From positions 1-57,442 of the forward strand of contig MUNG01000016.1 in assembly GCA_002154585.1 (NCBI GenBank): a stretch of DNA of 57,442 nucleotides, given 5' to 3'. The position numbers were made by a program, and so were the translations under genes. The notes below the pieces were generated by a model. The model was not told where the DNA came from and did not search any database. It saw only the letters and a program-made list of their open reading frames with translations. Shown piece after piece: positions 7,019-46,609 of the stretch (position 1 is its first letter; each line of letters begins with the position of its first letter). This stretch comes from Streptomyces pseudogriseolus. Its GTDB lineage: Bacteria; Actinomycetota; Actinomycetes; Streptomycetales; Streptomycetaceae.

Positions 7019-8026
7019 ATGGCGACAGTCCCGACCCCCCTCGCCGGCCGTCACTTCCTCAAGGAGGCCGACTTCACCGCGGAGGAGTTCCGCGGCCTGC
7101 TGGAGCTGGCCGCGGAGCTGAAGGCCGCCAAGCGGGCCGGGACCGAGACGCAGTACCTGCGCGGGAAGAACATCGCGCTGATCTTCGAGAAGACCTCGAC
7201 GCGCACCCGCTGCGCCTTCGAGGTCGCCGCCGCCGACCAGGGCGCCTCCACGACCTACCTCGACCCTTCCGGCTCGCAGATCGGCCACAAGGAGTCCGTG
7301 AAGGACACCGCGCGGGTGCTGGGCCGGATGTACGACGGGATCGAGTACCGGGGCGACAGCCAGGCGAAGGTCGAGGAGCTGGCCGCCTTCGCGGGCGTCC
7401 CCGTCTACAACGGGCTCACCGACGACTGGCACCCCACCCAGATGCTCGCCGACGTGCTCACCATGACCGAGCACACGGCCAAGCCGCTCGGCGGGATCGC
7501 CTTCGCCTACCTCGGCGACGCCCGCTTCAACATGGGCAACTCCTACCTGGTCACCGCCGCCCTGCTGGGCATGGACGTCCGCATCGTCGCCCCGAAGACG
7601 TACTGGCCGGCGCAGGAGGTGATCGACCGCGCCCGCGAGCTGGCCACGGAGAGCGGCGCCCGGATCACGCTCACCGAGGAGATCGCCGAGGGCGTGGCGG
7701 GCGCCGACTTCGTCGCCACCGACGTCTGGGTGTCCATGGGGGAGCCCAAGGAGGTCTGGGGGGAGCGGATCGCCGCCCTCGCGTCGTACGCGGTCACCAT
7801 GGACGTCCTGCGCGCCACCGGCAACCCGGACGTCGGGTTCCTGCACTGCCTGCCGGCCTTCCACGACCTGGGCACCGCGGTCGGACGGGACGTGTACGAG
7901 GCGCACGGTCTCACGTCGCTGGAGGTCACCGACGAGGTGTTCGAGTCGGCGCACTCGCTGGTCTTCGACGAGGCGGAGAACCGCATGCACACCATCAAGG
8001 CGGTGCTGGTCGCCACCCTCGGCTGA
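7019..8026 (+). CDS. argF: Ornithine carbamoyltransferase
   Basis: It transfers the carbamoyl group between carbamoyl phosphate and ornithine to give citrulline, or runs the reverse reaction when coupled to arginine deiminase. The start is the ATG at 7019 ([20 protein letters not shown]) after CCTGGAG; 17 upstream in-frame codons are discounted. The carbamoyl-phosphate loop FEKTSTRTR, the ornithine loop [11 protein letters not shown] and the active-site HCLPAFHD segment are all present. At 335 residues it is full length. The position next to arcA suggests catabolic use, but in Streptomyces this gene can also serve biosynthesis, so the direction is inferred. Confidence 0.93.
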
Positions 8027-17621: not shown

Positions 17622-18686
17622 CTACGCCACCGCCGTCTCCGGCCAGTTCAGCAGCCGCGCCCCGATGACGGCCGTCTGGAGCATGTACCGGTGCGCCGGA
17701 TCGCCGGGATCGGCGCCGGTCAGCCGGTGGATCCGCTCCAGCCGGTACGTCAGCGCCCGCACGCTCAGCGACAGCCGCCGGGCCGCCTCGGCGGCAACGC
17801 AACCGGAGTCGAAGTAGGCGGTGAGCGTGTCCAGAAGCGGCCCGGCCCCGCCGCGCGCCTCGGTCAGCGGGCCCAGGGTGTTGTGCACCAGGTCGGCCAT
17901 GGCCTGCCGGTCGCGGGCCAGCACCGGGTAGACCAGCAGGTCGGCGGCGCGCAGCACCGGGTCGTCCAGGTCCAGGCGCTCGGCGATCTCCAGCGCGTTC
18001 AGCGCCTCCTCGTACGACTGGACCACCCCGCCCGGCCCCGGCTGCGGGCGTCCGATCGCCACCTGGCCGCCGTCGGTGGCGGCGTGCGCCTGCTTGGCGA
18101 AGTGGGTGAGCACGTCCTGCTGGTGGCCGGGCGCGATGCACAGCAGCCGCCCGTCCTTGGTGGTGAGCAGGATGCTGCGGTCGCCGAACCGGGTGATCAG
18201 GGCGCGCTCCACCTGGCGCGGCACCGGGTCCCCGTCCTCGTAGGCGACGGGGCCCCGGGCGACGGCGACCGCGTGCTCGTGGGACAGCCGCAGCCCGAAC
18301 CGTTCGGCGCGCTCGGCCAGCCGGCCCAGGTCGCTGCGTCCGTGGAGCAGGTCGTCGATGAACTCCCGTCGCGCCGCCTCCTCCTGACGGACCGCCATCC
18401 GCTGCGCCCGCTCGTACCCTTCGGCGAACGCGTCCACCGCCTGCTGCACGGCCGCGAGCGCGCCGTCGGCCGTGCCGGTGCCGCGGGCCGGCCAGGCGTC
18501 GCGCGCGGCGGCGAGATGGGCGATGACCAGGGAGCGCAGACCGAAGCCGGCCTCCGCGGCCTGTTCCCCGAGGGCGCGGCGGGAGGCGAGCTCGTCGCGG
18601 GTGAGACGCCTGCCCGTGGCCGCGACCTCGGCCAGTATCCCGGCGTACCCCTCCAGATACTGCTCCGGAATCTCTCGATCCGGCAC
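17622..18686 (-). CDS. PucR-family transcriptional regulator
   Basis: A 354-residue regulator. The N-terminal two thirds form a helical and GGDEF-like sensor region (FGDRSILLTTKDGRLLCIAP). The C-terminus has the CdaR/PucR helix-turn-helix TLTAYFDSGCVAAEAARRLS followed by SVRALTYRLERIHRLTG. I prefer the GTG at 18686 (VPDREIPEQYLEGYAGIL), preceded by AGAGGGGG; an ATG at 18728 would add 14 residues. A perfect palindrome 74 bases upstream may be its autoregulatory operator. No metabolic gene beside it shows what it senses. Confidence 0.8.
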   Translation of the reverse strand: MPDREIPEQYLEGYAGILAEVAATGRRLTRDELASRRALGEQAAEAGFGLRSLVIAHLAAARDAWPARGTGTADGALAAVQQAVDAFAEGYERAQRMAVRQEEAARREFIDDLLHGRSDLGRLAERAERFGLRLSHEHAVAVARGPVAYEDGDPVPRQVERALITRFGDRSILLTTKDGRLLCIAPGHQQDVLTHFAKQAHAATDGGQVAIGRPQPGPGGVVQSYEEALNALEIAERLDLDDPVLRAADLLVYPVLARDRQAMADLVHNTLGPLTEARGGAGPLLDTLTAYFDSGCVAAEAARRLSLSVRALTYRLERIHRLTGADPGDPAHRYMLQTAVIGARLLNWPETAVA

Positions 18687-18759
18687 GTCGTCCCCCTCTG
18701 CCTCCGCACGCCATCCTGATGCGTTCATGGCCGCTCACCGGCATGGAGACCCTAGTGAA

Positions 18760-18780
18760 CATTGCCGGAAACCGGCAATG
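18760..18780. promoter_or_regulatory. Perfect palindrome upstream of the PucR gene
   Basis: CATTGCCGG-AAA-CCGGCAATG, with 9-base arms and a 3-base centre. It lies in the 537-base gap between the PucR gene and the flotillin gene. Size and symmetry suit a dimeric activator or repressor. Confidence 0.6.
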
Positions 18781-18894
18781 CGCGAGGCGGGCCGGACCGT
18801 GCAGCATGGGGCGCGGGGAGCACTGCGGAGGTTCCGGTGCCGGACACCGGCAGGGGTGCGGCACCGGAATCGGTGGACGGAGAGGAGGGCGGGC

Positions 18895-19044
18895 GTGCAC
18901 AGCTTTGAGAACCGCGCCGCCCGCTTCGTCCCGGCCGCCCCCCGTCGCACGGGGCCGCTGCACCGCACCGCCCCCGACGAACCCTGGCCGTCCCGGTCCC
19001 CGCGCACGCGCGGTGCGGACGGGGACGGTGCGGCGCGCCGCTGA
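18895..19044 (+). CDS. Possible 49-residue basic protein
   Basis: A GTG at 18895 follows AGAGGAGG at good spacing and opens 49 codons (MHSFENRAARFVPAAPRRTG at the start), rich in Arg, Pro and Ala. It is divergent from the PucR gene, with the palindrome between. I do not recognise it, and the support is only the ribosome binding site and the open frame. The remainder of the gap, 19045-19223, holds no gene and presumably the flotillin promoter. Confidence 0.3.
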   Translation: MHSFENRAARFVPAAPRRTGPLHRTAPDEPWPSRSPRTRGADGDGAARR

Positions 19045-19223
19045 CCCGGAGGGCAATCCTCCGTGCCCGGCGCGAAACCGCATCGACGGCTGAGCCGTCT
19101 CCCTCACCATCCGATGTCACCGCCTCGCCCCGACGCGAGGCCCCGCACCCTTGAGGCCCTCGCCCGCGAGGCGCCGCACGCTTCCGACTTCTGCCCGTAA
19201 GTCAGCCCAGAAGGACGTGTCCC

Positions 19224-21269
19224 ATGGATGCCGCCACCGTGGGCATCGCCGTACTCGCCGGCGTCGCCCTGTTGCTCGTGCTCATCGGCCTGCTCACACT
19301 CACCAAACTGTTCCGCAAGGTGGAGCAGGGCAAGGCCCTGATCGTCTCCAAGCTCCGCAAGGTCGACGTGACCTTCACCGGCTCGGTCGTGCTGCCCGTG
19401 CTGCACAAGGCCGAGGTGATGGACATCTCGGTGAAGACCATCGAGATCACCCGCGCCGGCAAGGAAGGACTGATCTGCCGGGACAACATCCGCGCGGACA
19501 TCCGCATCACGTTCTTCGTCAAGGTCAACAAGACCGTCGAGGACGTCGTGAAGGTCGCGCAGGCCGTCGGGACCGCCCGCGCCAGCGACCGCGACACCCT
19601 CCAGGAGCTGTTCCACGCGAAGTTCTCCGAGGCGCTGAAGACCGTCGGCAAGCAGATGGACTTCACCGACCTCTACACCAAGCGCGAGGAACTGCGGTAC
19701 CGCATCATCGAGGTCATCGGCGTCGACCTGAACGGCTACCACCTCGAGGACGCCGCGATCGACTACCTGGAGCAGACGCCGCTCACCCAGCTCGACCCGG
19801 GCAACGTCCTCGACGCGCAGGGCATCCGCAAGATCACCGAGCTGACCGCGGTGGAGCACGTGCGCACCAACGAGGCGCAGCGCAACGAGGAGAAGGAGAT
19901 CACCCGGCAGGACGTCGACGCGCGCGAGGCGATCCTGGAGCTCCAGCGGCGGCAGGCCGACGCCGAGATCAAGCAGAAGCGGGAGATCGAGACCGTGCGC
20001 GCCCGCGAGGAGGCGGAGACCGCGCGGGTGGTCGAGGAGGAGCGGCTGCGGGCGCAGAGCGCCTTCCTGCGCACCGAGGAACAGCTCGGCGTGCAGCGGG
20101 AGAACCAGGCGCGTGAGGTCGCCGTCGCCGCGAAGAACCGCGAGCGGGTCATCGCCGTGGAGAGCGAGCGCATCGAGAAGGACCGCCTGCTGGAGGTCAT
20201 CGCCCGCGAGCGGGAGACCTCGCTGACCAGGATCGCCGCCGACAAGGAGGTCGAGGCGGAGAAGCGGGAGATCGCCGAGGTCATCCGCGAGCGTGTCGCG
20301 GTGGACCGTACGGTCGCCGAGCAGGAGGAGTCCATCAAGAAGCTGCGGGCGGTCGAGGAGGCGGAGCGCCGGCGGCAGGCCGTGATCATCGCGGCGGAGG
20401 CCGAGGCGCAGGAGAAGCTGGTCAAGGACATCAAGGCCGCCGAGGCCGCCGAACAGGCCGCGGCGCACCGCGCCGCCGAGGAACTCACCCTCGCCGAGGC
20501 CCGGTTGAAGACCGCCGACCTCGACGCCAAGGCCAAGGTGCGGCTCGCGGAGGGCGTCCGGGCCGAGTCCGCCGCCGAGGGACTCGCCGCCGTCCAGGTG
20601 CGCGACAAGGAGGCCGAGGTCATCGAGAAGGCCGGCCGTGCCGAGGCCGGGGCCACCGAGGCCCGGCTGCGCGCGGAGGCCGAGGGCGCCCGCGCCAAGG
20701 CGGTCGCGGAGGCGGAGGCCATCTCCGGCAAGTTGCGCGCCGAGGCGGCCGGTCTCACCGAGAAGGCGGCGGCGATGGCCGCGCTCGACGAGGCGTCCCG
20801 CGGCCACGAGGAGTACCGCCTGCGGCTCGAGGCCGAGAAGGACGTCCGGCTCGCCGGGCTCGACGTGCAGCGGCAGGTCGCGGAGGCCCAGGCCACCGTG
20901 CTCGCCACCGGCCTGGAGAACGCGGACATCAACATCGTCGGCGGCGACTCGGTGTTCTTCGACCGCCTGGTGTCGTCCATCTCGCTCGGCAAGGGCGTGG
21001 ACGGCTTCGTCCAGAACTCCCAGGCCGTGCAGGCCCTCGCCGGGCCCTGGCTGGACGGCTCCGCGAGCTTCGCCGACGACCTGAGCCGGATGCTCGGCTC
21101 CGTCTCCACCTCCGGCGTGCGCGACCTCACGGTGGCCGCCCTGCTGACGAAGCTGATGAAGCAGGGCGGTGACAGCAGCGGGCAGTTCCGGCAACTGCTC
21201 GACAAGGCAGGTGAGTTGGGTCTGGCGGACACTCCGCTGGCCGACCTGAACGGCCGTACCGGGGCCTGA
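19224..21269 (+). CDS. Flotillin/SPFH-family membrane protein
   Basis: A 681-residue flotillin-type protein; the start is MDAATVGIAVLAGVALLLVL. One N-terminal transmembrane helix (about 6-28) precedes an SPFH/Band 7 domain (about 35-210, containing VEQGKALIVSKLRKV and the DNIRADIRITFFVKVN segment). A very long Glu/Ala/Arg coiled coil follows (about 220-560), then a C-terminal globular tail with ENADINIVGGDSVFFDRLV. Flotillins form membrane scaffolds. The next gene encodes a giant AAA+ ATPase 70 bases downstream on the same strand, and the two probably act together. It is longer at the C-terminus than classical flotillin because of the extra tail. Confidence 0.85.
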   Translation: MDAATVGIAVLAGVALLLVLIGLLTLTKLFRKVEQGKALIVSKLRKVDVTFTGSVVLPVLHKAEVMDISVKTIEITRAGKEGLICRDNIRADIRITFFVKVNKTVEDVVKVAQAVGTARASDRDTLQELFHAKFSEALKTVGKQMDFTDLYTKREELRYRIIEVIGVDLNGYHLEDAAIDYLEQTPLTQLDPGNVLDAQGIRKITELTAVEHVRTNEAQRNEEKEITRQDVDAREAILELQRRQADAEIKQKREIETVRAREEAETARVVEEERLRAQSAFLRTEEQLGVQRENQAREVAVAAKNRERVIAVESERIEKDRLLEVIARERETSLTRIAADKEVEAEKREIAEVIRERVAVDRTVAEQEESIKKLRAVEEAERRRQAVIIAAEAEAQEKLVKDIKAAEAAEQAAAHRAAEELTLAEARLKTADLDAKAKVRLAEGVRAESAAEGLAAVQVRDKEAEVIEKAGRAEAGATEARLRAEAEGARAKAVAEAEAISGKLRAEAAGLTEKAAAMAALDEASRGHEEYRLRLEAEKDVRLAGLDVQRQVAEAQATVLATGLENADINIVGGDSVFFDRLVSSISLGKGVDGFVQNSQAVQALAGPWLDGSASFADDLSRMLGSVSTSGVRDLTVAALLTKLMKQGGDSSGQFRQLLDKAGELGLADTPLADLNGRTGA

Positions 21270-21276
21270 CCACCAC

Positions 21277-21319
21277 CCGTCCGGGAGCCGCCGCACAGGG
21301 GACGGCGGCTCCCGGACGG
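21277..21319 (+). promoter_or_regulatory. Strong hairpin between flotillin and ATPase genes
   Basis: CCGTCCGGGAGCCGCCG (21277-21293) pairs perfectly with CGGCGGCTCCCGGACGG (21303-21319); the stem is 17 bp and the loop 9. It starts seven bases after the flotillin stop and ends 20 bases before the ATPase start. It is either a partial terminator or an RNA-processing site that sets the ratio of the two proteins. Confidence 0.6.
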
Positions 21320-21339
21320 CTCCTTCCCGAGAGGCAGCC

Positions 21340-24300
21340 ATGACCACCGGCACCCACGAGCCCATCCACCACGGCGCCCGCCCGGCCGGCGCCGCCCCGG
21401 CCGCTGTCACCGGGCGGCCCGCCGCCGCGGCGGACGCCGCCGCGGCCGACGGCGGCGCCTACCAGGTGCTGCGCGACCGCCTCACCGCCCGCGCCGCCGA
21501 ACTCGCCCGCCGCGCCGAGGCGTTGAACCGGCGCCGGGCCGAGGAGTTCGGCGCGCCCGAGCTGCGCCTCACCGCCACCGGGCGGCTGCGCACCGAACGC
21601 ACCGCCGCGCCCCGCGACGTCGTCGCCGTCGGCGACGTGCTGCTCCTCGGCTACGAGCCCCGGCCCCGCCCGGACCGGGACATCGCCGTCGGCGACGTCC
21701 TCGCCGCCCACGACCGCGACCTGAACCGGCTGCCCGACGACGCCGTGCCCGGCCTCCTCGACGACCCCGCCTTCCTCCGCGAGTTCGCCGCCCTGCACCG
21801 CTACTACCGGCAGGCCCGCCTGCTGCGGCTGCGCCGCGTCGAAGGCAAGCTGCTCGCCGTCTTCCAGACCGGCGAGAAGCCCGGCGACATCCGCGTCCTG
21901 CGCTGGTCCGTCACCGACGACGGCCACGTGACGTTCCTCGACGCCCGCGGCGACCGCGACCACGCGCAGCGCCCGCCCGACGACATCGAATGGACGCCCG
22001 CCACCCGCGAGGACCACGTCCTCGGCCGCCACCCGCACGTCTCCGTCCAGGGCGAGGTGTTCGTCGACACCCTCGGCGGCACCCTCACCGTCAAGACGGA
22101 GAACGACACCGGCACACCCGACGGCATCCACAGCGAACCCGTCGACGAGCCCCTGCAGTCCCTCGCCGACGCCGACATCGCCCACGCCCGCGTCGGCCCG
22201 CTGATCCTGCTGCGGATCCTCCCCTACAAGGAGACCGCCCACCGCCACCTCGTCTTCAACACCCTCACCCGCACCGTCGTCCGCCTCGACGGCATCGGCC
22301 AGGGCTGCCGCCGCCTGCCCGAGGACCAGGGCATCGTCTTCGCCGGCGGCCACTGCCTCGCCGCCGGCGGCCACAAGACGTACGACCTCGACACCGAGGG
22401 CATGGAGTTCGAGCGGGAGGTGCGCTCCCCGTACGGCGAGGACGTGCTGTACGCCTTCCACGCGCCCGCCCGCGGACGCTCCCTGCTGCTCTCCTACAAC
22501 CAGATCAGCGAGGCCGTCGCCACCCCGATGGCCTGCCACGGCTGGGCCCTGTTCGACGACGGGCGCCTCACCCTGCTGCGTCCCGAGGGCGACGAACCCG
22601 CGCGCGTGCACCCCGTGCAGCTGTGGGACACGCCCTACCTGTCCGACGCCCGCGCCGCCGCGCAGCCGGTGGGGGAGGGGCCGCTGGCCCGGGTGGGCAA
22701 CGCCGACCTGGTGCGCGGCGTCTCCGACTGCCTGTCGCTGGCCCGCGCCGCCGCCGAGACCACCCCCACCGCCGAGATCTACGCGACCCTCGCCGCCGCC
22801 TGCGTGCGCGCGCTGGACACCCACCACTGGCTGGGCGACCCCGAGGTCGGCGACCTGCGTACCCCGCTGGAGGAGGTCCGCGCCACCGCCGAGCAGGTGC
22901 TCGCCGAGTTCGAGACGGTCACCGACCTCACCCGCCGGGCCGCGGAAGCCCTCGACGAGGCCGCCGAGCGGATCACCGCCGTGGTGCGCCGGCTGCGCGG
23001 CGAACAGCCCCGCGAGGCCGCCGCCTGGGTGCGCGGACTCACCGAACTCCGTCAGGCGCAGGGCCATCTGCTGACCCTGAAGGAGATGCGGTACGCCGAC
23101 CACGGGCGGATCGACGCGCTCGCCGCCGACGCCGACGACGACCTCGCCTCCTTCGGGCACCGCGCCGTCGCCTTCCTGGCCCGCGAGGACGCCTTCGCCG
23201 CCCACCACGCCGCCCTGGAGCGGCTGCACGCCGACATCGAGGCGGTCGCCACCACCGCGGGGGCCGCACCGCTCGCCGCCCGCCTCGACGAACTCGCCGA
23301 CGGACTGCGCACGGTGACCGAGGTGGTCGCCGGGCTCGACATCGCCGACGCCACCGTCCGCACCGGCGTCCTGGAGCGCGTCGCCGACGCCCTGGGCGGC
23401 GTCAACCGCGCCCGCGCGAGCCTCGACACCCGCCGCCGGAGCCTCCTCGACCGGGAGGCGCGCGCCGGGTTCGCCGCCGAGCTGACCCTGCTCGGCCAGA
23501 CCGTCACCGGCGCCCTCGCCGCCGCCGGGGACCCGGACGCCTGCGACGACCAGATGGCGCGGGTCCTCGCCCAGCTCGAGGAACTGGAGTCCCGGTTCGC
23601 CGAGTTCGACGACGTCCTCGGCGAACTCGCCGACCGACGGGCCGAGATGTACGACGCGTTCTCCGCCCGCAAGCAGGCCCTCACCGACGCCCGCGCCCGC
23701 CGTGCAGCCCAGCTCGCCTCCGCCGCCGAACGGGTCCTGGAGACGATCACCCGCCGCAGCGCCGCCCTCGCCGACGCCGACGCGGTGAGCACCTACTTCG
23801 CCTCCGACCCGCTGGTCTCCAAGGTCCGCCGCAGCGCCGACGACCTGCGCGCCCTCGGCGACCGGGTGCGCGCCGAGGAACTCGACGGCAGGCTGCGCTC
23901 CGCCCGCGAGGAGGCCGCCCGCGCCCTGCGCGACCGCGCGGACCTGTACGCCGACGGCGGCCGCACGCTCCGCCTGGGCGCGCACCGCTTCGCCGTCTCC
24001 ACCCAGCCCTTCGACCTCACCGTCGTCCCGCACCAGGACGGCCTCGCCCTCGCCCTCACCGGCACCGACTACCGTGCCCCCGTCACCGACCCCGCCCTCC
24101 TCGCCGACCGCCCCCTGTGGGACCGGCATCTGCCGTCCGAGTCGCCCGGCGTCAGCCGCGCCGAACACCTCGCCGCCCGGCTGCTCCACGAGCACGGCCC
24201 GGACGCCCTCGCCGGCGCCGACGACCTCGCCGCCCTGGTCCGCACGGCCGCCGAGGAGGCGTACGACGAGGGGTACGAGCGGGGCGTCCACGACCACGAC

Positions 24301-26313
24301 GCCACCGCGATCCTCACCGCCCTGCTGCCCCTGCACGACGGCGCCGGCGCCCTGCGCCACGCCGCCGCGGTGCGCGCCCACGCCCTGCTGTTCTGGGCGC
24401 ACGGCACCACGGAGCCGGAGCGCACCGACCTCACCCGCCGCGCCCGCTCCCTCGCCCGGGTCCGGGACGCCTTCGGGGCGCCGCCCGCGCTGGACGCGCT
24501 GCGGGACGAACTCGCCCGCGCGGTGGGGGAGCGGGACCCGGACGCCGCCGCCCGCCCGCAGGCGTGCGCCGCGTACCTCCTCGACGAACTCACCACCGGA
24601 CCCGACGGGTTCGTGATCAGCGCCCGCGCCCGCACCCTGCTCGACAAGTTCCGCCGCACCGTCGCCGGGGAGGCCTACGACGAGGATCTCACCGCCCTCG
24701 CGGACCTCGGCGCCCGCCGGCAGCTGGTCGAGGCGTGGCTGACCGCGTACGCGCGGGCGGCCGGCGAAGAGGCGGACGCCGGGGACCTCGCGGAGGCCGT
24801 GGCCGCCGAACTGTGCCCGGACGTGCCGCGCTACGAGTCGGACGCGCCCCTCACCGTCACCGTCGAGGGCCTGGTCTCCGCCCACCCGCGCATCACCGAC
24901 CGCCGGCTCGCCCTCCGCCTGGACGAGTTCCTCGCCCGCACCGACGCCTTCCGGGCGCGCGAGGTGCCCGCCTTCCGCGCCTTCCAGCGCCGCCGCGCCG
25001 CCCTCGTCACCGCCGAGCGCGCCCGGCTGCGCCTCGACGACCACCGTCCGCGCGTGACGGCGGCGTTCGTCCGCAACCGCCTGGTCGACGAGGTGTACCT
25101 GCCGCTGATCGGGGACAGCCTGGCCAAGCAGCTCGGCACCACCGGCGAGTCCGCCCGCACCGGCGCCGGCGGACTGCTGCTGCTCCTGTCCCCGCCCGGC
25201 TACGGCAAGACGACCCTGATGGAGTACGTCGCCCACCGCCTTGGCCTGGTCCTGGTGCGGGTCAGCGGCCCCGCGCTCGGCCACGGCGTCACCTCGCTCG
25301 ACCCGGCCGAGGCGCCGAACGCCACCGCCCGCCAGGAGGTGGAGAAGATCAACTTCGCGCTGGCGGCCGGCGGCAACACACTGCTGCACCTGGACGACAT
25401 CCAGCACACCTCGCCGGAACTGCTCCAGAAGTTCATCCCGTTGTGCGACGCCACCCGCCGGGTGGAGGGCGTCTGGCAGGGCGAGCCGCGCACCTACGAC
25501 CTGCGCGGCAAGCGGTTCGCGGTGTGCATGGCCGGCAACCCGTACACCGAGTCCGGCGAGGTCTTCCGGGTGCCCGACATGCTGGCCAACCGGGCCGACG
25601 TGTGGAACCTGGGCGACGTCCTCACCGGCAAGGAGGACGTCTTCGCGCTCAGCTTCGTGGAGAACGCGCTCACCGCGAACCCGGTGCTCGCGCCGCTCGC
25701 CGGACGCGACCGCGCCGACCTGGACCTGCTGATCCGGCTCGCCTCCGACGACCCGACGGCCCGTCCGGACCGCCTGCGCCACCCGTACGCGCCGACCGAA
25801 CTCGACCGCGTGCTCGCGGTGTTGCGCCACCTGCTCACGGCCCGCCGTACGGTGCTGGCGGTGAACGCGGCGTACATCGCCTCCGCGGCCCGCTCCGACG
25901 ACGCCCGCACCGAGCCGCCCTTCCTGCTCCAGGGCTCCTACCGCAACATGAACAAGATCGCCCAGCGGATCCAGCCCGTGATGAACGACGCGGAACTGTC
26001 CGCCGTCGTCGAGGACCACTACACGGCGGAGGCCCAGACCCTCACCACCGGCGCCGAGGCGAACCTGCTGAAACTGGCCGAGCTGCGGGGCACGCTCACG
26101 GCCGAACAGGCCACCCGCTGGGCGGAGGTGAAGACGGCACACGTCCGCACGCTCACCCTGGGCGGGCCCGACGACGAGGCCCTCACCCGCGCGGTCTCCG
26201 CCCTCGCCCTGCTGGGCGACCGCATCGCGGCGGTCGAATCGGCGATCACACGGGCGACGGCGGCCCCTCGGCACGTTCCGGCACCGCCGCCGCGACAGGA
26301 GGGTGACGGCTGA
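21340..26313 (+). CDS. Giant AAA+ ATPase ('DNA repair ATPase' type)
   Basis: A 1657-residue protein. Residues 50-450 contain strand-rich, repeat-like sequence (GDVLLLGYEPRPRPDRDIAVGDVL and later VFNTLTRTVVRLDG and SLLLSYNQISEA) that could be a beta-propeller. Residues 450-900 are long helices with high Glu/Arg, probably coiled coil. The C-terminal third holds one AAA+ domain: Walker A PPGYGKTT at 1285-1292, Walker B LLHLDDIQ at 1348-1355, and a sensor-1-like AGNPY at 1398-1402. Similar proteins are annotated as DNA repair ATPase, but I know of no experiment that supports repair. The flotillin gene upstream and shared strand suggest a membrane-attached AAA+ machine. Confidence 0.8.
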   Translation: MTTGTHEPIHHGARPAGAAPAAVTGRPAAAADAAAADGGAYQVLRDRLTARAAELARRAEALNRRRAEEFGAPELRLTATGRLRTERTAAPRDVVAVGDVLLLGYEPRPRPDRDIAVGDVLAAHDRDLNRLPDDAVPGLLDDPAFLREFAALHRYYRQARLLRLRRVEGKLLAVFQTGEKPGDIRVLRWSVTDDGHVTFLDARGDRDHAQRPPDDIEWTPATREDHVLGRHPHVSVQGEVFVDTLGGTLTVKTENDTGTPDGIHSEPVDEPLQSLADADIAHARVGPLILLRILPYKETAHRHLVFNTLTRTVVRLDGIGQGCRRLPEDQGIVFAGGHCLAAGGHKTYDLDTEGMEFEREVRSPYGEDVLYAFHAPARGRSLLLSYNQISEAVATPMACHGWALFDDGRLTLLRPEGDEPARVHPVQLWDTPYLSDARAAAQPVGEGPLARVGNADLVRGVSDCLSLARAAAETTPTAEIYATLAAACVRALDTHHWLGDPEVGDLRTPLEEVRATAEQVLAEFETVTDLTRRAAEALDEAAERITAVVRRLRGEQPREAAAWVRGLTELRQAQGHLLTLKEMRYADHGRIDALAADADDDLASFGHRAVAFLAREDAFAAHHAALERLHADIEAVATTAGAAPLAARLDELADGLRTVTEVVAGLDIADATVRTGVLERVADALGGVNRARASLDTRRRSLLDREARAGFAAELTLLGQTVTGALAAAGDPDACDDQMARVLAQLEELESRFAEFDDVLGELADRRAEMYDAFSARKQALTDARARRAAQLASAAERVLETITRRSAALADADAVSTYFASDPLVSKVRRSADDLRALGDRVRAEELDGRLRSAREEAARALRDRADLYADGGRTLRLGAHRFAVSTQPFDLTVVPHQDGLALALTGTDYRAPVTDPALLADRPLWDRHLPSESPGVSRAEHLAARLLHEHGPDALAGADDLAALVRTAAEEAYDEGYERGVHDHDATAILTALLPLHDGAGALRHAAAVRAHALLFWAHGTTEPERTDLTRRARSLARVRDAFGAPPALDALRDELARAVGERDPDAAARPQACAAYLLDELTTGPDGFVISARARTLLDKFRRTVAGEAYDEDLTALADLGARRQLVEAWLTAYARAAGEEADAGDLAEAVAAELCPDVPRYESDAPLTVTVEGLVSAHPRITDRRLALRLDEFLARTDAFRAREVPAFRAFQRRRAALVTAERARLRLDDHRPRVTAAFVRNRLVDEVYLPLIGDSLAKQLGTTGESARTGAGGLLLLLSPPGYGKTTLMEYVAHRLGLVLVRVSGPALGHGVTSLDPAEAPNATARQEVEKINFALAAGGNTLLHLDDIQHTSPELLQKFIPLCDATRRVEGVWQGEPRTYDLRGKRFAVCMAGNPYTESGEVFRVPDMLANRADVWNLGDVLTGKEDVFALSFVENALTANPVLAPLAGRDRADLDLLIRLASDDPTARPDRLRHPYAPTELDRVLAVLRHLLTARRTVLAVNAAYIASAARSDDARTEPPFLLQGSYRNMNKIAQRIQPVMNDAELSAVVEDHYTAEAQTLTTGAEANLLKLAELRGTLTAEQATRWAEVKTAHVRTLTLGGPDDEALTRAVSALALLGDRIAAVESAITRATAAPRHVPAPPPRQEGDG

Positions 26314-28967: not shown

Positions 28968-29683
28968 CGGGCCACCGCCTGGGCCGACTCGGCCGACTCG
29001 GCCCGCTTCTTCCCGGCCGCCGAGGCGACCAGCACCCCGAGCCGGGTCAGCTCGCCCTTGCTGGACTGCACCAGCAGCCGCATCACCAGCACGGTCAGCA
29101 GCCCCTCGCTGACGGCGAGCGGGATCTGCGTGACGGCGAAGATGGAGCCGAACTTGCCGAGCGCGCCCAGGAATCCGCTGCCCGGGTCGGGGAACGCCAG
29201 CGCCAGCTGCACGCTCGTCACGCAGTACGTCGACAGGTCGGCGACGAACGCGGCGCAGAACACCGCGCCCATCAGCGGCAGGTCGTACCGGCGCAGCAGC
29301 CGGTAGACGGCGTATCCGGCCCAGGGGCCGACGATCGCCATGGAGAAGACGTTCGCGCCGAGCGTGGTGAGCCCGCCGTGGGCGAGCAGCAGCGCCTGGA
29401 ACAGCAGGGTGATGGTCCCGAGCACCGCCATGACCGGCGGCCGGAACAGGATCGCGCCCAGCCCGGTGCCGGTGGGGTGGGAACAACTTCCTGTCACCGA
29501 GGGGAGTTTCAGCGCGGACAGGACGAACGTGAACGCGCCGGACGCGCCCAGCAGGAGTGTGCTCTCGGGATGTTCTCTCACGTCGCGGACGAGCGACCGG
29601 GCTCCGTGGACGACGAACGGCGCCGATGCGACGCCCCAGGCGACCGCGTGCGCCGGAGGCAGGAAACCCTCGGCTATGTGCAT
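28964..29683 (-). CDS. cbiM: Cobalt ECF transporter substrate-specificity subunit CbiM
   Basis: The metal-binding membrane subunit, 239 residues. The protein begins with the invariant MHI ([17 protein letters not shown]), whose N-terminal amine and His coordinate the metal. The family segments [19 protein letters not shown] and [19 protein letters not shown] are present. It is the first gene of the operon, preceded by the cobalamin riboswitch. Cobalt is favoured over nickel because of the riboswitch. Confidence 0.92.
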
Positions 29684-29730
29684 GGCTCAGCAGACCCTCT
29701 CCAGCACCTCGTGGATGGTTGACGCGCCTT

Positions 29731-29905
29731 GGCCGGTCTCCTGGCTGACGGGTACCACCGCCCGTGCTCCGCCTTCCCGGGTCCCGAGGGACCCAGTGGC
29801 CGTCCGTGAGGACTGGAGCCGGACTTCCCGATCACAGTGGCGAGGGCCGCACCGGTATCGCACCGATTTCCCGTCACCAAGGCGTGGTGACAGTAGTCCC
29901 CGTGG
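29731..29905 (-). promoter_or_regulatory. Cobalamin riboswitch upstream of cbiM
   Basis: Read on the minus strand, the region shows the conserved core in order: GGGAAATCGGTGCGATACCG, then GCGGCCCTCGCCACTGTGAT, then a GGGAAGTCCGG segment, a variable stem, and the B12 box AGCCAGGAGACCGGCC ending at 29731. Binding of adenosylcobalamin should reduce expression of cbiMNQO. The gap from 29684 to 29730 holds the cbiM ribosome binding site. Confidence 0.92.
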
Positions 29906-43493: not shown

Positions 43494-44747
43494 TCACGCG
43501 GGGGTGCGGGCGCGGGCCAGGCGTACGGCGATGTCGCGCAGCGCCGACAGCAGTTGCCCCGGCTCTCGGGACAGGTCGACGCTGTGCTGGTGCAGCAGCA
43601 CGCCGCGCCCGTCCGCGCCCGCCGCCGTCCCGCGCACCTCGTGGAAGCGCGTGGGCAGCCGCCCCGCCGCGTACACCAGGTGCGCCTCGCGCAGGCCGAG
43701 CACCGTGGCGTACGCCAGCGCCTGGTACAGGTCGGCGTTGAGGCGGCCGTCGCCCTTCTCCACCTTGTACTTGGCGTCGACGACGGCGACCGGCGTCCGG
43801 CCGTCACGGGTGCGCACCACGAGGTCGGGACGGATCCGTACGAGTCCCGCGGTGTCGAGGTGGTGCGTGTCCTGGAGCCGGGCGGTCAGGCCGTGCTCCT
43901 TCAGCGCCTCGCTCAGGGCGACGGTGACGAAGTCCTCGAACAGCTGGTTCATGTCGATCAGGAAGCCGTCCACGGCGAGCGGATCGGCGCCCGGCGGCGT
44001 GTGCTCGGGCGAGGAGCCGCGCAGGACGGCCTCACAGAGCCGCAGGGTTGGCTGGTAGCGGGAGTTGAGCCGGGAGGGCTGCCAGCGCGGCAGTTCCTGC
44101 CCCCGGACCAGGGGCAGCGCGTCGGCGAGCCGGACCCGCTGGTGGGCCAGGCGCCGCCGCACGGGGCCGGGAACGCCGGGCAGGCGCAGCAGCCGCTCGA
44201 CGGCGGCCCGCAGGATGCGGTTCTCGGCGGTGTCCGCGGTGTAGTCGTCGTACGCGATCTCCACGGGCGGCGTGCGGCCGAAGTGCCGTCTGATCTGCTC
44301 GGCCTCGAGGATGCGCCCGCGCACCACCAGCGAGGACTCCTCCACCTCCCGGTAGCCCTGGAGGACCCCTTGGCGCAGCGCCGCGTCGATCCGCCGCTCC
44401 ACGGCGTGGGCGAGCGCGGGCACCACGTCGTCGTACGCGCCGGTGTCGACGGTGCCCTCCCGGTCGTCGTGCCAGGCCCGTTCCGGGGCGAGGCTGAACC
44501 CGAGAAGGAAGAAGATCCGGCTCACCGGGGTCTTGGGCATGATCCGCACGATCGGCCCGCCGGGCGTGCGCAGCGCGCCGACCCGGCTGCCCGCCCGCAG
44601 CAGCCAGTGCCCGTCACGGGCCGGGTCCGGCGTGACGCTCCGGAGTATCCCTGAGGCGGCGAGGGCCCGGCCGGCCGCGGCGCCGAGCGGCACGGAGACG
44701 GCGGGTCCGTACTCGCGCAGCACCACGTCCGGCACGGGCTCGGTCAT
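43494..44747 (-). CDS. McrC-like PD-(D/E)XK nuclease subunit
   Basis: A 417-residue McrC-family protein; the start is MTEPVPDVVLREYGPAVSVP. The N-terminal domain has GGPIVRIMPKTPVSRIFFLL. The middle carries the McrC signature VVRGRILEAEQIRRHFGR and YTADTAENRILRAAVERLL, then the ESRYQP-like region NSRYQPTLRLCEAVL. The C-terminal nuclease core is IRPDLVV (Asp308) and VVDAKYK (Asp324, Lys326), with a full catalytic set. In McrBC systems this subunit cuts DNA when driven by the GTPase McrB. The ATG overlaps the mcrB stop (ATGA). Confidence 0.86.
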   Translation of the reverse strand: MTEPVPDVVLREYGPAVSVPLGAAAGRALAASGILRSVTPDPARDGHWLLRAGSRVGALRTPGGPIVRIMPKTPVSRIFFLLGFSLAPERAWHDDREGTVDTGAYDDVVPALAHAVERRIDAALRQGVLQGYREVEESSLVVRGRILEAEQIRRHFGRTPPVEIAYDDYTADTAENRILRAAVERLLRLPGVPGPVRRRLAHQRVRLADALPLVRGQELPRWQPSRLNSRYQPTLRLCEAVLRGSSPEHTPPGADPLAVDGFLIDMNQLFEDFVTVALSEALKEHGLTARLQDTHHLDTAGLVRIRPDLVVRTRDGRTPVAVVDAKYKVEKGDGRLNADLYQALAYATVLGLREAHLVYAAGRLPTRFHEVRGTAAGADGRGVLLHQHSVDLSREPGQLLSALRDIAVRLARARTPA

Positions 44748-46558
44748 GCCGGCCGCTCGCGCAGCGCGTCGAGGCCGTAGCGGGCGGCGATGTCGACGCC
44801 CTCGCCGTAGTGGTGCTCCTCCAGCAGCGGCAGGATCTTCGTGCGCCAGGTCCGTTCGAGGCCGCCGTCGCGGTACACGCCCGGCTTCATCAGGTACGAG
44901 GGGCCGATGGCGAAGTCGGCGTCGTCGACGCGGGAGTTGAGGGCGTCGAGGAGGCGGGCCGGCTCCGCGTCGCGCCCTTCGCGCGCTAGCCAGCGGGCGA
45001 GCAGGCCGGCGGTCGGCTCGGTGCGCGGGGACAGCTCCACGAACGCGAAACGGCGCCGCATCGCCGCGTCGACCAGCGCGATGGAGCGGTCGGCGGTGTT
45101 CATCGTGCCGATCACGAAGAGGTTGGGCGGCAGCGGGAAGTCGTCCCCGGAGTAGGTGAGCCGCACGGACCGGTCCCGGTACTCCAGCAGGAAGTACAGC
45201 TCCCCGAAGACCTTGGCCAGGTTGGCGCGGTTGATCTCGTCGATGATCAGGAAGTGCGGGACGTGCCGGTTGCCGTCGCGGGAGGCGAGGTCGGCGAGCT
45301 CCCGCAGCGGGCCGGCGGTGAGCCGGAACGCCACCTCCCGCGTCTCGGGGTCCTCCACCGGACGGAAGCCCTCGAAGAAGTCCTCGTAGGCGTACGACGG
45401 GTGGAACTGCACGATCTTGACCTGCTCCGGGCCGCCGCCGAAGTGCTCGGCGAGCTTCATGGCGAGGTACGTCTTGCCGGTGCCCGGCGGGCCGTAGAAC
45501 ACCAGCTGCTTCTCGTCGAGCAGCAGCTCGCGCAGCTCCTCCAGCCACGCCCGGTCGTGGACGAGCAGCTCCTCGGCGAGGGCCTCGCTGATCCCGGGCA
45601 GCGTCAGCTCCTTGGGCGCCGCGCGCTCCAGGGTGTCCGCGGCCTCCGCCCGGTCGGTCCCGTCCGCCTCGCCGGCGAGCCCGTCCAGGGCGTCGAGGAC
45701 GCCGGTCAGATCGACCACGTCGTGCTGCACGGACAGCTTCTGCCGCAGCTCGCCGGGCAGTTCGTCGTACGGGTGACCGTCGGCCCGCCAGGTGACCGAC
45801 CGGCGCAGGTTGGACAGCCCTCCCGGCGACGTGGTCTGCACGGCGTCTCCGGTGATCCGGCCGAGGTACATCCGGTCGTCGTCGTAGGTCGCCACGGTGT
45901 CGCCGACCCGCATCTGCGTCAGGAACGCGTGCAACTCGTCGACGAGGCCCTGCTTCTGGTGGTACGAGGCCGCTCCTTCGTAGCCCTCCTCGACGAAGCG
46001 CCGCAGCGCGCTCTTCGTCGGGTCGGACTCCTCCAGCGGCGGCAGGTGCGCGCCCGACAGCGACACGAACCCTTCCGCCAGCCACAGCTGCCGCACCAGG
46101 TTGTGCCCCGAGACGTTCGACCCGCGCACCAGCCACGCCTTGTGCGGGGGACGCCAGCCGGTGGACAGGTAGTCGGAGAGCGGGTGCCCCTCGTCGGTGC
46201 GCCAGGACTCGGGGCCGGAGGCGTCGTAGCCGCACACCAGCGCTGCGGCGGCGGACGAGGAGTTGCACTCGATGTCCCGGGTCGCCACCCACCGCGCGGG
46301 CGCGCCCTCGGGCCGGCCGGGAACGGACGGGGCGTCCACGAGGGCGCCCTCCGCGCGGAGTTCCGCCCGCGACCGGCGGGCATGACGGCCGAGCCCGGGC
46401 CACTCCTCGGCGGTCACGAGGGACCCCTCGCGCAGCAGGAACCGGTTCGTCCCGTTGCCCCCGAACCGCGTCAACAGCCACCCCCGCGCCTCGGCCCCGT
46501 CCTGCGGCAGCCTGATGCGGAACTCGGGCGTGCCGGGGAGACGGTCGGGCTGGGGCAT
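44744..46558 (-). CDS. McrB-like AAA+ protein with N-terminal RAMA-type domain
   Basis: A 604-residue protein; the start MPQPDRLPGTPEFRIRLPQD follows GGAAGG. The N-terminus (about 10-115) resembles the RAMA/DUF4357 domain: REGSLVTAEEWPGLGRHAR, then RDIECNSSSAAAALVCGYD and SGPESW. A second reader-like module (about 200-270) contains MRVGDTVATYDDDRMYLGRI. The AAA+ motor has Walker A GPPGTGKT (Lys362), Walker B FLIIDEINRANLAK (Asp440, Glu441) and the McrB motif GTMNTADRSIALVDAAMRRR. McrB proteins use GTP or ATP to move on modified DNA and activate McrC. The domain set suggests recognition of a modified base. The first genes of the operon face the XRE-ImmA gene across 159 bases. Confidence 0.84.
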   Translation of the reverse strand: MPQPDRLPGTPEFRIRLPQDGAEARGWLLTRFGGNGTNRFLLREGSLVTAEEWPGLGRHARRSRAELRAEGALVDAPSVPGRPEGAPARWVATRDIECNSSSAAAALVCGYDASGPESWRTDEGHPLSDYLSTGWRPPHKAWLVRGSNVSGHNLVRQLWLAEGFVSLSGAHLPPLEESDPTKSALRRFVEEGYEGAASYHQKQGLVDELHAFLTQMRVGDTVATYDDDRMYLGRITGDAVQTTSPGGLSNLRRSVTWRADGHPYDELPGELRQKLSVQHDVVDLTGVLDALDGLAGEADGTDRAEAADTLERAAPKELTLPGISEALAEELLVHDRAWLEELRELLLDEKQLVFYGPPGTGKTYLAMKLAEHFGGGPEQVKIVQFHPSYAYEDFFEGFRPVEDPETREVAFRLTAGPLRELADLASRDGNRHVPHFLIIDEINRANLAKVFGELYFLLEYRDRSVRLTYSGDDFPLPPNLFVIGTMNTADRSIALVDAAMRRRFAFVELSPRTEPTAGLLARWLAREGRDAEPARLLDALNSRVDDADFAIGPSYLMKPGVYRDGGLERTWRTKILPLLEEHHYGEGVDIAARYGLDALRERPA

Positions 46559-46609
46559 GGGTGACCTTCCGGGAGACGAGGTCGACATGAACACTGCACA
46601 CCCTAAGTG

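Follow-up and report, generated by a model that had tools for sequence, protein, structure and literature searches.

Bacterial flotillins are mostly described as scaffolds that work alongside an NfeD-type protein, and a locus in Streptomyces pseudogriseolus raises the question of what such a protein does when its neighbor is instead a giant AAA+ ATPase. In the 57,442-nucleotide (nt) stretch that we analyzed (contig MUNG01000016.1, assembly GCA_002154585.1; hereafter the window), a gene for an SPFH/flotillin protein is followed on the same strand by a gene for an ATPase of the DUF3686 family, with 70 nt between the stop codon of the one and the ATG of the other (Table 1). Both open reading frames lie where an initial annotation of the sequence had placed them, and the SPFH assignment made there was borne out by a match to PF01145 (E 2.7e-8; 34.5 bits against a Pfam cut-off of 23.6). 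The flotillin has a hydrophobic N-terminus, in which 19-residue Kyte-Doolittle windows starting at residues 1-15 exceed 1.6, and it has no relative in the PDB by sequence at E <= 0.01. Among the matches listed, most of the nearest proteins (99-100% identity) carry the name S. pseudogriseolus.

Flotillin and ATPase genes form a two-gene unit

To establish how regularly the two genes occur together, we examined the best 80 of 188 confirmed ATPase relatives in species-representative genomes. A flotillin gene lay directly upstream, on the same strand, in 76 of these 80 loci, and in the 4 misses the ATPase gene starts no more than 585 nt from the edge of its contig. DUF3686 was found in 9 of 396 actinobacterial genomes, with a flotillin gene upstream at all 11 distinct ATPase loci (the window's own counted). 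One of the 11 comes from another family and shares 36% (ATPase) and 42% (flotillin) identity with the window's proteins; it was still paired. In addition to this one phylum, the wide survey took in 12 plasmid-collection records from four phyla, and an SPFH gene preceded the ATPase gene directly in every one. These records represent Streptomyces, Nonomuraea, Deinococcus, Pseudomonas, Proteus, Hymenobacter, Halomonas, Photobacterium, and Vibrio; two are near-identical Proteus strains and several are chromosome-sized. The initial annotation had proposed a gene-neighborhood survey for fixed pairing, and fixed pairing is what the survey found.

All three sets were gathered via the ATPase and cannot reveal flotillins that lack one. 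The reverse test was a search with the flotillin (E <= 1e-30), carried out in Streptomyces only, across 121 genomes. The ATPase was present in 62 genomes, the flotillin in the same 62, and neither in the other 59 (Fisher p 5e-36, relatedness ignored). A 63rd ATPase match, of 30 residues (E 1e-4), fell below the cut-off and was left out of this count. A flotillin gene was found within 1.5 kb upstream at 63 of 64 ATPase loci in these genomes, the exception being a locus that begins at contig base 3. Collectively, these data indicate that the flotillin and the ATPase form a real two-gene unit with fixed pairing.

Two of the 121 genomes, G128 and G182, carry two flotillin-ATPase pairs each, every pair with a match to the junction hairpin described below. 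One ATPase match in G128 lies in a 622-residue open frame and the flotillin matches in G182 are split, so that these frames look interrupted.

The ATPase motor and the reduction of YqiJ

The 1657-residue ATPase matches PF12458 at residues 54-496 (E 4.6e-182; 605.9 bits against a cut-off of 25) and PF25472 at residues 617-701 (E 7.5e-28), and a P-loop domain match begins at residue 1280. The initial annotation had described one complete C-terminal AAA+ motor. Its Walker B position (1348-1355) was right, and its Walker A position was off by one residue: the motif SPPGYGKT occupies residues 1284-1291, not 1285-1292. K1290, D1352, D1353, N1400, R1418, and R1535 did not vary among 10 ATPases drawn from Actinomycetota, Pseudomonadota, Bacteroidota, and Deinococcota. 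We take N1400 to be sensor-1, R1418 to be a putative arginine finger, and R1535 to be sensor-2. Judged by these motifs, the single motor is intact. The propeller-like N-terminus proposed in the initial annotation was backed by a predicted model. No peptidase family was detected in the ATPase at E <= 1 in a Pfam search, and a hydropathy scan found no hydrophobic window above 1.6, that is, no membrane segment of its own. Neither the ATPase nor the flotillin matched an NCBIfam model above its cut-off, and relatives of the ATPase in the PDB were by sequence essentially limited to the P-loop region.

The homologue search with the ATPase returned 3061 scored homologues, and the best 120 of about 3,000 were listed per protein search. 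The alignments used 69 of 92 ATPases and 86 of 92 flotillins. Eleven ATPases were dropped because of apparent in-frame stops, which may be artefacts of frame choice, and the others because of missing ends or unread bases. Outside any named domain, residues 975-988 of the ATPase (24262-24303 of the window) carry a motif around YDEGYERGVHDHDA, whose HDHD does not vary among 10 diverse ATPases; H986 is absent from the invariant list of a 37-row alignment.

Table 1 Features of the flotillin-ATPase locus, in window coordinates
Feature	Position	Strand	Basis or remark
PucR-type regulator (GGDEF_2 + HTH_30), divergent from flotillin	17622..18728	-	PF17853, PF13556; candidate module regulator
Upstream region, site of YqiJ in other lineages; no YqiJ-like frame found	18729..19223	+	YqiJ profile
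SPFH/flotillin protein (YqiK-like), 681 residues	19224..21269	+	Open reading frame, PF01145 match
Predicted N-terminal membrane segment of flotillin, about residues 1-33	19224..19322	+	Hydropathy
SPFH (Band_7) domain, flotillin residues 32-179	19317..19760	+	PF01145
RNA hairpin, perfect 17-bp stem, 9-nt loop CACAGGGGA	21277..21319	+	Inverted repeat, covariation, fold
DUF3686 AAA+ ATPase, 1657 residues ("DNA repair ATPase" is an annotation name only)	21340..26313	+	Open reading frame, PF12458, PF25472
Predicted beta-propeller, ATPase residues 72-432	21553..22635	+	Predicted model
Long helical, coiled-coil-like region with PF25472, ATPase residues 507-870	22858..23949	+	Predicted helices
AAA+ motor, ATPase residues 1243-1545	25066..25974	+	Motifs, conservation

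In other lineages a third gene, yqiJ, stands in front of the pair. A YqiJ-like gene precedes the flotillin gene in 11 of the 12 plasmid-collection records and in 47 of 74 loci, window included, in which all frames in the 1.4 kb preceding the flotillin gene were scored with a profile built from nine YqiJ-like proteins. The 74 loci divide into 22 with a full-length YqiJ, 25 with the membrane half only, and 27, the window among them, with none. We placed these states on a tree of 86 flotillins, a quick reconstruction with long outgroup branches and 13 rows that lack a YqiJ label. Full-length YqiJ was found in 12 basal Streptomyces and in the 10 labelled actinobacteria from outside the genus, while a derived group of 54 rows (Shimodaira-Hasegawa-like approximate likelihood ratio test 97) contained 24 with the cut form, 27 with none, and 3 without a label. 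A plasmid-borne relative among the basal Streptomyces (L103) had no YqiJ match. YqiJ_OB had 0 matches in the whole genome of the window's strain. This distribution suggests that the OB half of YqiJ was lost first and the membrane half later, probably several times. That the ATPase was kept while YqiJ decayed follows from the flotillin search in the 121 Streptomyces genomes and not from the ATPase-collected loci.

The unit also occurs within envelope-stress gene clusters. On pQBR103, a 425-kb Pseudomonas plasmid, genes for YqiJ-like, SPFH, and ATPase proteins (5108-13088 of L093) lie inside a PspA/polyamine gene run that ends with the pair and contains genes for YjfI, PspA, a rhomboid protease, DUF2491, DUF350, DUF1190, and glutathionylspermidine synthase. 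On a Hymenobacter plasmid the pair is preceded by genes for a Tir-type chaperone, PspA, and DUF1449. The text of PMC11237479 (Ravi et al. 2024) describes, from genomes, a coiled-coil/beta-propeller ATPase beside flotillin, YqiJ, and PspA; it reports the PspA context more widely, and mentions abbreviated operons without PspA. Since that paper describes such operons, the module is already known from comparative genomics, and the window holds a reduced form: unlike in the PspA-CesT/Tir-YqiJ-flotillin-AAA+ operons, PspA and YqiJ are both missing next to its pair. The words "hairpin," "PucR," and "Streptomyces" each occur 0 times in the paper's main text. The YqiJ reduction, the covarying junction hairpin, and the linked PucR regulator are not in that main text. 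The initial annotation had missed all three, as well as the PspA/YqiJ context.

The junction hairpin and the linked PucR gene

The 70-nt gap contains an inverted repeat. RNA spanning 21265-21345 folds at -46.8 kcal/mol (z -4.56). The gap between the two genes was at least 30 nt in 82 of 89 loci, and in 68 of these 82 the best inverted repeat beat all 20 dinucleotide shuffles; the 89 loci are related to each other and so are not independent. By comparison, 2 of 23 control gaps (same-strand, 30-300 nt, from three annotated stretches, two Streptomyces plasmids) beat their shuffles, and none scored 12 or more. One loop class was common to 50 loci (44 distinct rows), among which both sides of the stem had changed in 14 of 18 pairs. 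Stem cells were paired in 91.5% of cases, compared with 77.0% in shuffles and 25-47% when slid.

Genome-wide, the hairpin model is not exclusive to the junction. Over 1.61 Mb, a scan for loop plus stem placed the hairpin at the junction in 38 of 84 loci, and the one other match lay in its own 500-nt junction. The strain's own genome (7.26 Mb) holds one copy when up to 2 mismatches are allowed. Across the 121 Streptomyces genomes, a hairpin model gave 64 distinct matches at E <= 0.01, of which 31 sit 92-218 nt before a DUF3686 match and 33 lie elsewhere. The strongest matches were at the junction: every one of the 15 with E <= 1e-6, and 19 of the 23 at E <= 1e-5. Ten matches away from the junction were inspected; several lay between unrelated genes or convergent gene ends, and some had the same loop, indicating that the loop belongs to a recurrent terminator-like class and that what is conserved is the site. 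Several Gram-negative loci have unrelated hairpins at the same junction, and several non-Streptomyces actinobacteria in which the two genes overlap or nearly overlap have none. We infer that the hairpin lowers expression of the ATPase.

Two other explanations of the hairpin were considered. A mobile repeat or regulon mark was rejected, given the single copy in the strain's own genome and the position of the strongest matches, and a canonical intrinsic terminator was unsupported, as there is no T-tail. In Rfam no family scored above threshold, and the sub-threshold rows were at chance level. In two genomes without the module (L120 and L124), a CACAGGGGA hairpin follows a transporter-like gene, presumably of the MMPL type. 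At another locus (L039), the ribosome-binding site and the start of the ATPase gene recur in tandem within the flotillin/ATPase junction (about 7765-8001), in units of about 27 nt that stay in frame.

A gene for a PucR-type regulator diverges from the flotillin gene. Homologues (E <= 1e-20) were found at 45 of the 89 loci, all in Streptomyces; 40 are divergent and upstream, 38 of them within 1.2 kb, and 5 have been relocated downstream. No homologue was found at the remaining 44 loci, some of which have short flanks. Of the 64 modules in the 121 genomes, 45 had a homologue no more than 6 kb upstream or 15 kb downstream, where about 0.2 would be expected at random (relatedness ignored). It was present in 61 of the 62 genomes with the module and also in 27 of the 59 without it, and PucR is therefore linked to the module but not exclusive to it.

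Other neighbors were kept in close kin only: DUF6299 at 18 loci and a hydrolase at 12 (window counted), CbiO and CbiQ at 19, and a secreted protein at 5. Farther downstream, on the minus strand, the window contains a cobalamin riboswitch (RF00174, 95.1 bits, 29714-29896) upstream of apparent cobalt-transport genes, of which the one that starts at 29683 we take to be CbiM-like. At 44744-46594, also on the minus strand, a protein with AAA_5 and DUF4357 domains reads as McrB-like and is possibly part of a restriction-type system.

A proposed role at the membrane

Our model starts from gene-level observations (the fixed pairing, the occurrence of both genes or neither, the motor motifs, no protease domain, no YqiJ, the hairpin, and the PucR link) and adds a propeller, a coiled coil, and a membrane anchor that are predicted. 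We propose that the flotillin forms a cage that recruits the AAA+ ATPase to dismantle protein assemblies at a membrane under stress, a proposal for which we consider the chances evenly balanced; the most likely role of the module would be that of a protease-free SPFH-AAA+ remodeller. The flotillin, through its hydrophobic N-terminus, would form the membrane-bound cage and anchor, which would then recruit the neighboring propeller/coiled-coil ATPase. The helical region of the ATPase may dock on the flotillin wall while the propeller reads a client or adaptor, and the motor would remodel its substrate using ATP, with no degradation. The clients would probably be misassembled membrane complexes, or coats beneath the membrane such as PspA. 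By lowering ATPase output relative to flotillin, the hairpin would give many flotillin subunits per motor, and the PucR protein may switch the unit on.

Precedents exist for coupling an SPFH protein to a AAA+ motor. The m-AAA machine carries a protease and membrane segments. So does FtsH, according to passages of PMC12624060, which group HflK/C-FtsH, prohibitin-m-AAA, and Erlin-p97 as SPFH proteins coupled to AAA+ motors at the membrane, as we propose here. By contrast, the window's ATPase has neither protease nor membrane segment by Pfam and hydropathy, and the sequence similarity of its motor to these SPFH-linked motors is limited to the AAA+ motifs. Passages of PMC12624060 and PMC11260169 describe SPFH cages that hold or modulate FtsH, report that they interact with mitochondrial AAA proteases, and state that Erlin works with p97-dependent degradation. 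PspA has its own link to SPFH proteins: B. subtilis needs the related SPFH protein YdjI to bring PspA to the membrane, as reported in PMC8581546. The YqiK-type flotillin is common to the window and the SPFH-NfeD/YqiJ-YqiK operons; E. coli, among 14 control genomes, has YqiJ_OB and no DUF3686, whereas the window has DUF3686 and no YqiJ. The Pseudomonas aeruginosa bac cluster (BacA/YjfI, BacB/PspA-like, and PaFlo3), for which biofilm phenotypes are described in the main texts of PMC10948618 and PMC13086221, brings together PspA-type, YjfI, and SPFH proteins, as in the context of the module, but those main texts name no ATPase (the word occurs 0 times).

Several findings weigh against a recruited remodeller. 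The module is missing from the 59 Streptomyces genomes that have neither gene. With a three-sequence PspA profile, PspA was near the module in just 2 of the 12 plasmid-collection records, and in the available flanks it was found in 0 of the 80 loci and not in the window; the genome's sole PF04012 (PspA) match sits on another contig (C188). The extra C-terminal tail that the initial annotation described on the window's Streptomyces flotillin is real, and would be the obvious dock, but it is not common to all paired flotillins: those of Pseudomonas, Deinococcus, and Halomonas do without it, and it is therefore ruled out as an obligatory dock. The predicted model of the motor is weak (predicted local distance difference test 68, predicted template modelling score 0.41), and any AAA+ subclade assigned to it would be tentative. 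The hairpin model matches at 31 of 64 modules, leaving 33 without a match at E <= 0.01. Finally, the membrane recruitment and the coiled-coil contact between flotillin and ATPase that the initial annotation proposed are, like the substrate, inferred.

These findings leave room for other explanations. If the motor is of a MoxR-clade-like type, as in NorQ and CbbQ, the ATPase could be a maturation factor that inserts cofactors into, or opens, one membrane enzyme, with the flotillin as its platform; we regard this as unlikely. Somewhat less likely again is that the two proteins are co-regulated neighbors in one pathway that never touch. The hairpin could uncouple the two genes, as this explanation would have it, but the fact that all 121 genomes have either the two genes together or none, while YqiJ decays, is stronger than co-regulation alone predicts.

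The initial annotation had also raised a role in defence and had doubted the label "DNA repair." A defence module, against phages or otherwise, in which the propeller senses and the flotillin serves as an effector platform at the membrane, would fit the patchy occurrence (62 of 121 Streptomyces and 9 of 396 actinobacterial genomes), the carriage on plasmids, and the two copies in G128 and G182. However, PADLOC, run on the pair itself, gave no system match, only P-loop-level IetA rows (E 0.003-0.05) and one weak coiled-coil LmuB row (E 0.14). The annotated operon partners, where present, are PspA envelope-stress genes, and the searches run in phage records and viral contigs found no relative, which also argues against a viral origin of the module. 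Accordingly, we consider a defence role improbable. Least probable, in our view, is a DNA repair or chromosome maintenance ATPase for which the flotillin anchors DNA to the membrane. In its favor are P-loop similarity to RuvB and the labels "DNA repair ATPase" and "ATPase involved in DNA repair" that Pfam and NCBI attach to such proteins, but the similarity to RuvB is limited to a stretch around the P-loop and Walker B. No DNA-binding domain was found with Pfam or NCBIfam, 0 of 6 window neighbors examined is a repair gene, and a literature search, which mostly did not extend to subscription journals, found no paper on the DUF3686 ATPase itself or on flotillin together with "DNA repair ATPase." The doubt about the label was thus well placed, and a name carried by a large family finds no support here in sequence or context.

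We return to the protease-free remodeller and ask what it would mean. In a broader form that we advance tentatively and that, with all its parts taken jointly, is rather doubtful, the machine would be what ESCRT-Vps4 or Erlin-p97 is in other cells, in a bacterial version; the ATPase would be an obligate partner of the flotillin that outlived and replaced the YqiJ/NfeD-type partner in a Streptomyces clade, with the hairpin setting its dose and PucR switching it on. Among the 121 Streptomyces genomes no flotillin of this kind was found without the AAA+ motor, and in a lineage that lacks the classical partner the pair amounts to a minimal two-gene system. The module is of moderate interest in itself and a good experimental system, in which the role of an SPFH cage for a AAA+ machine may be probed without a protease in the way.
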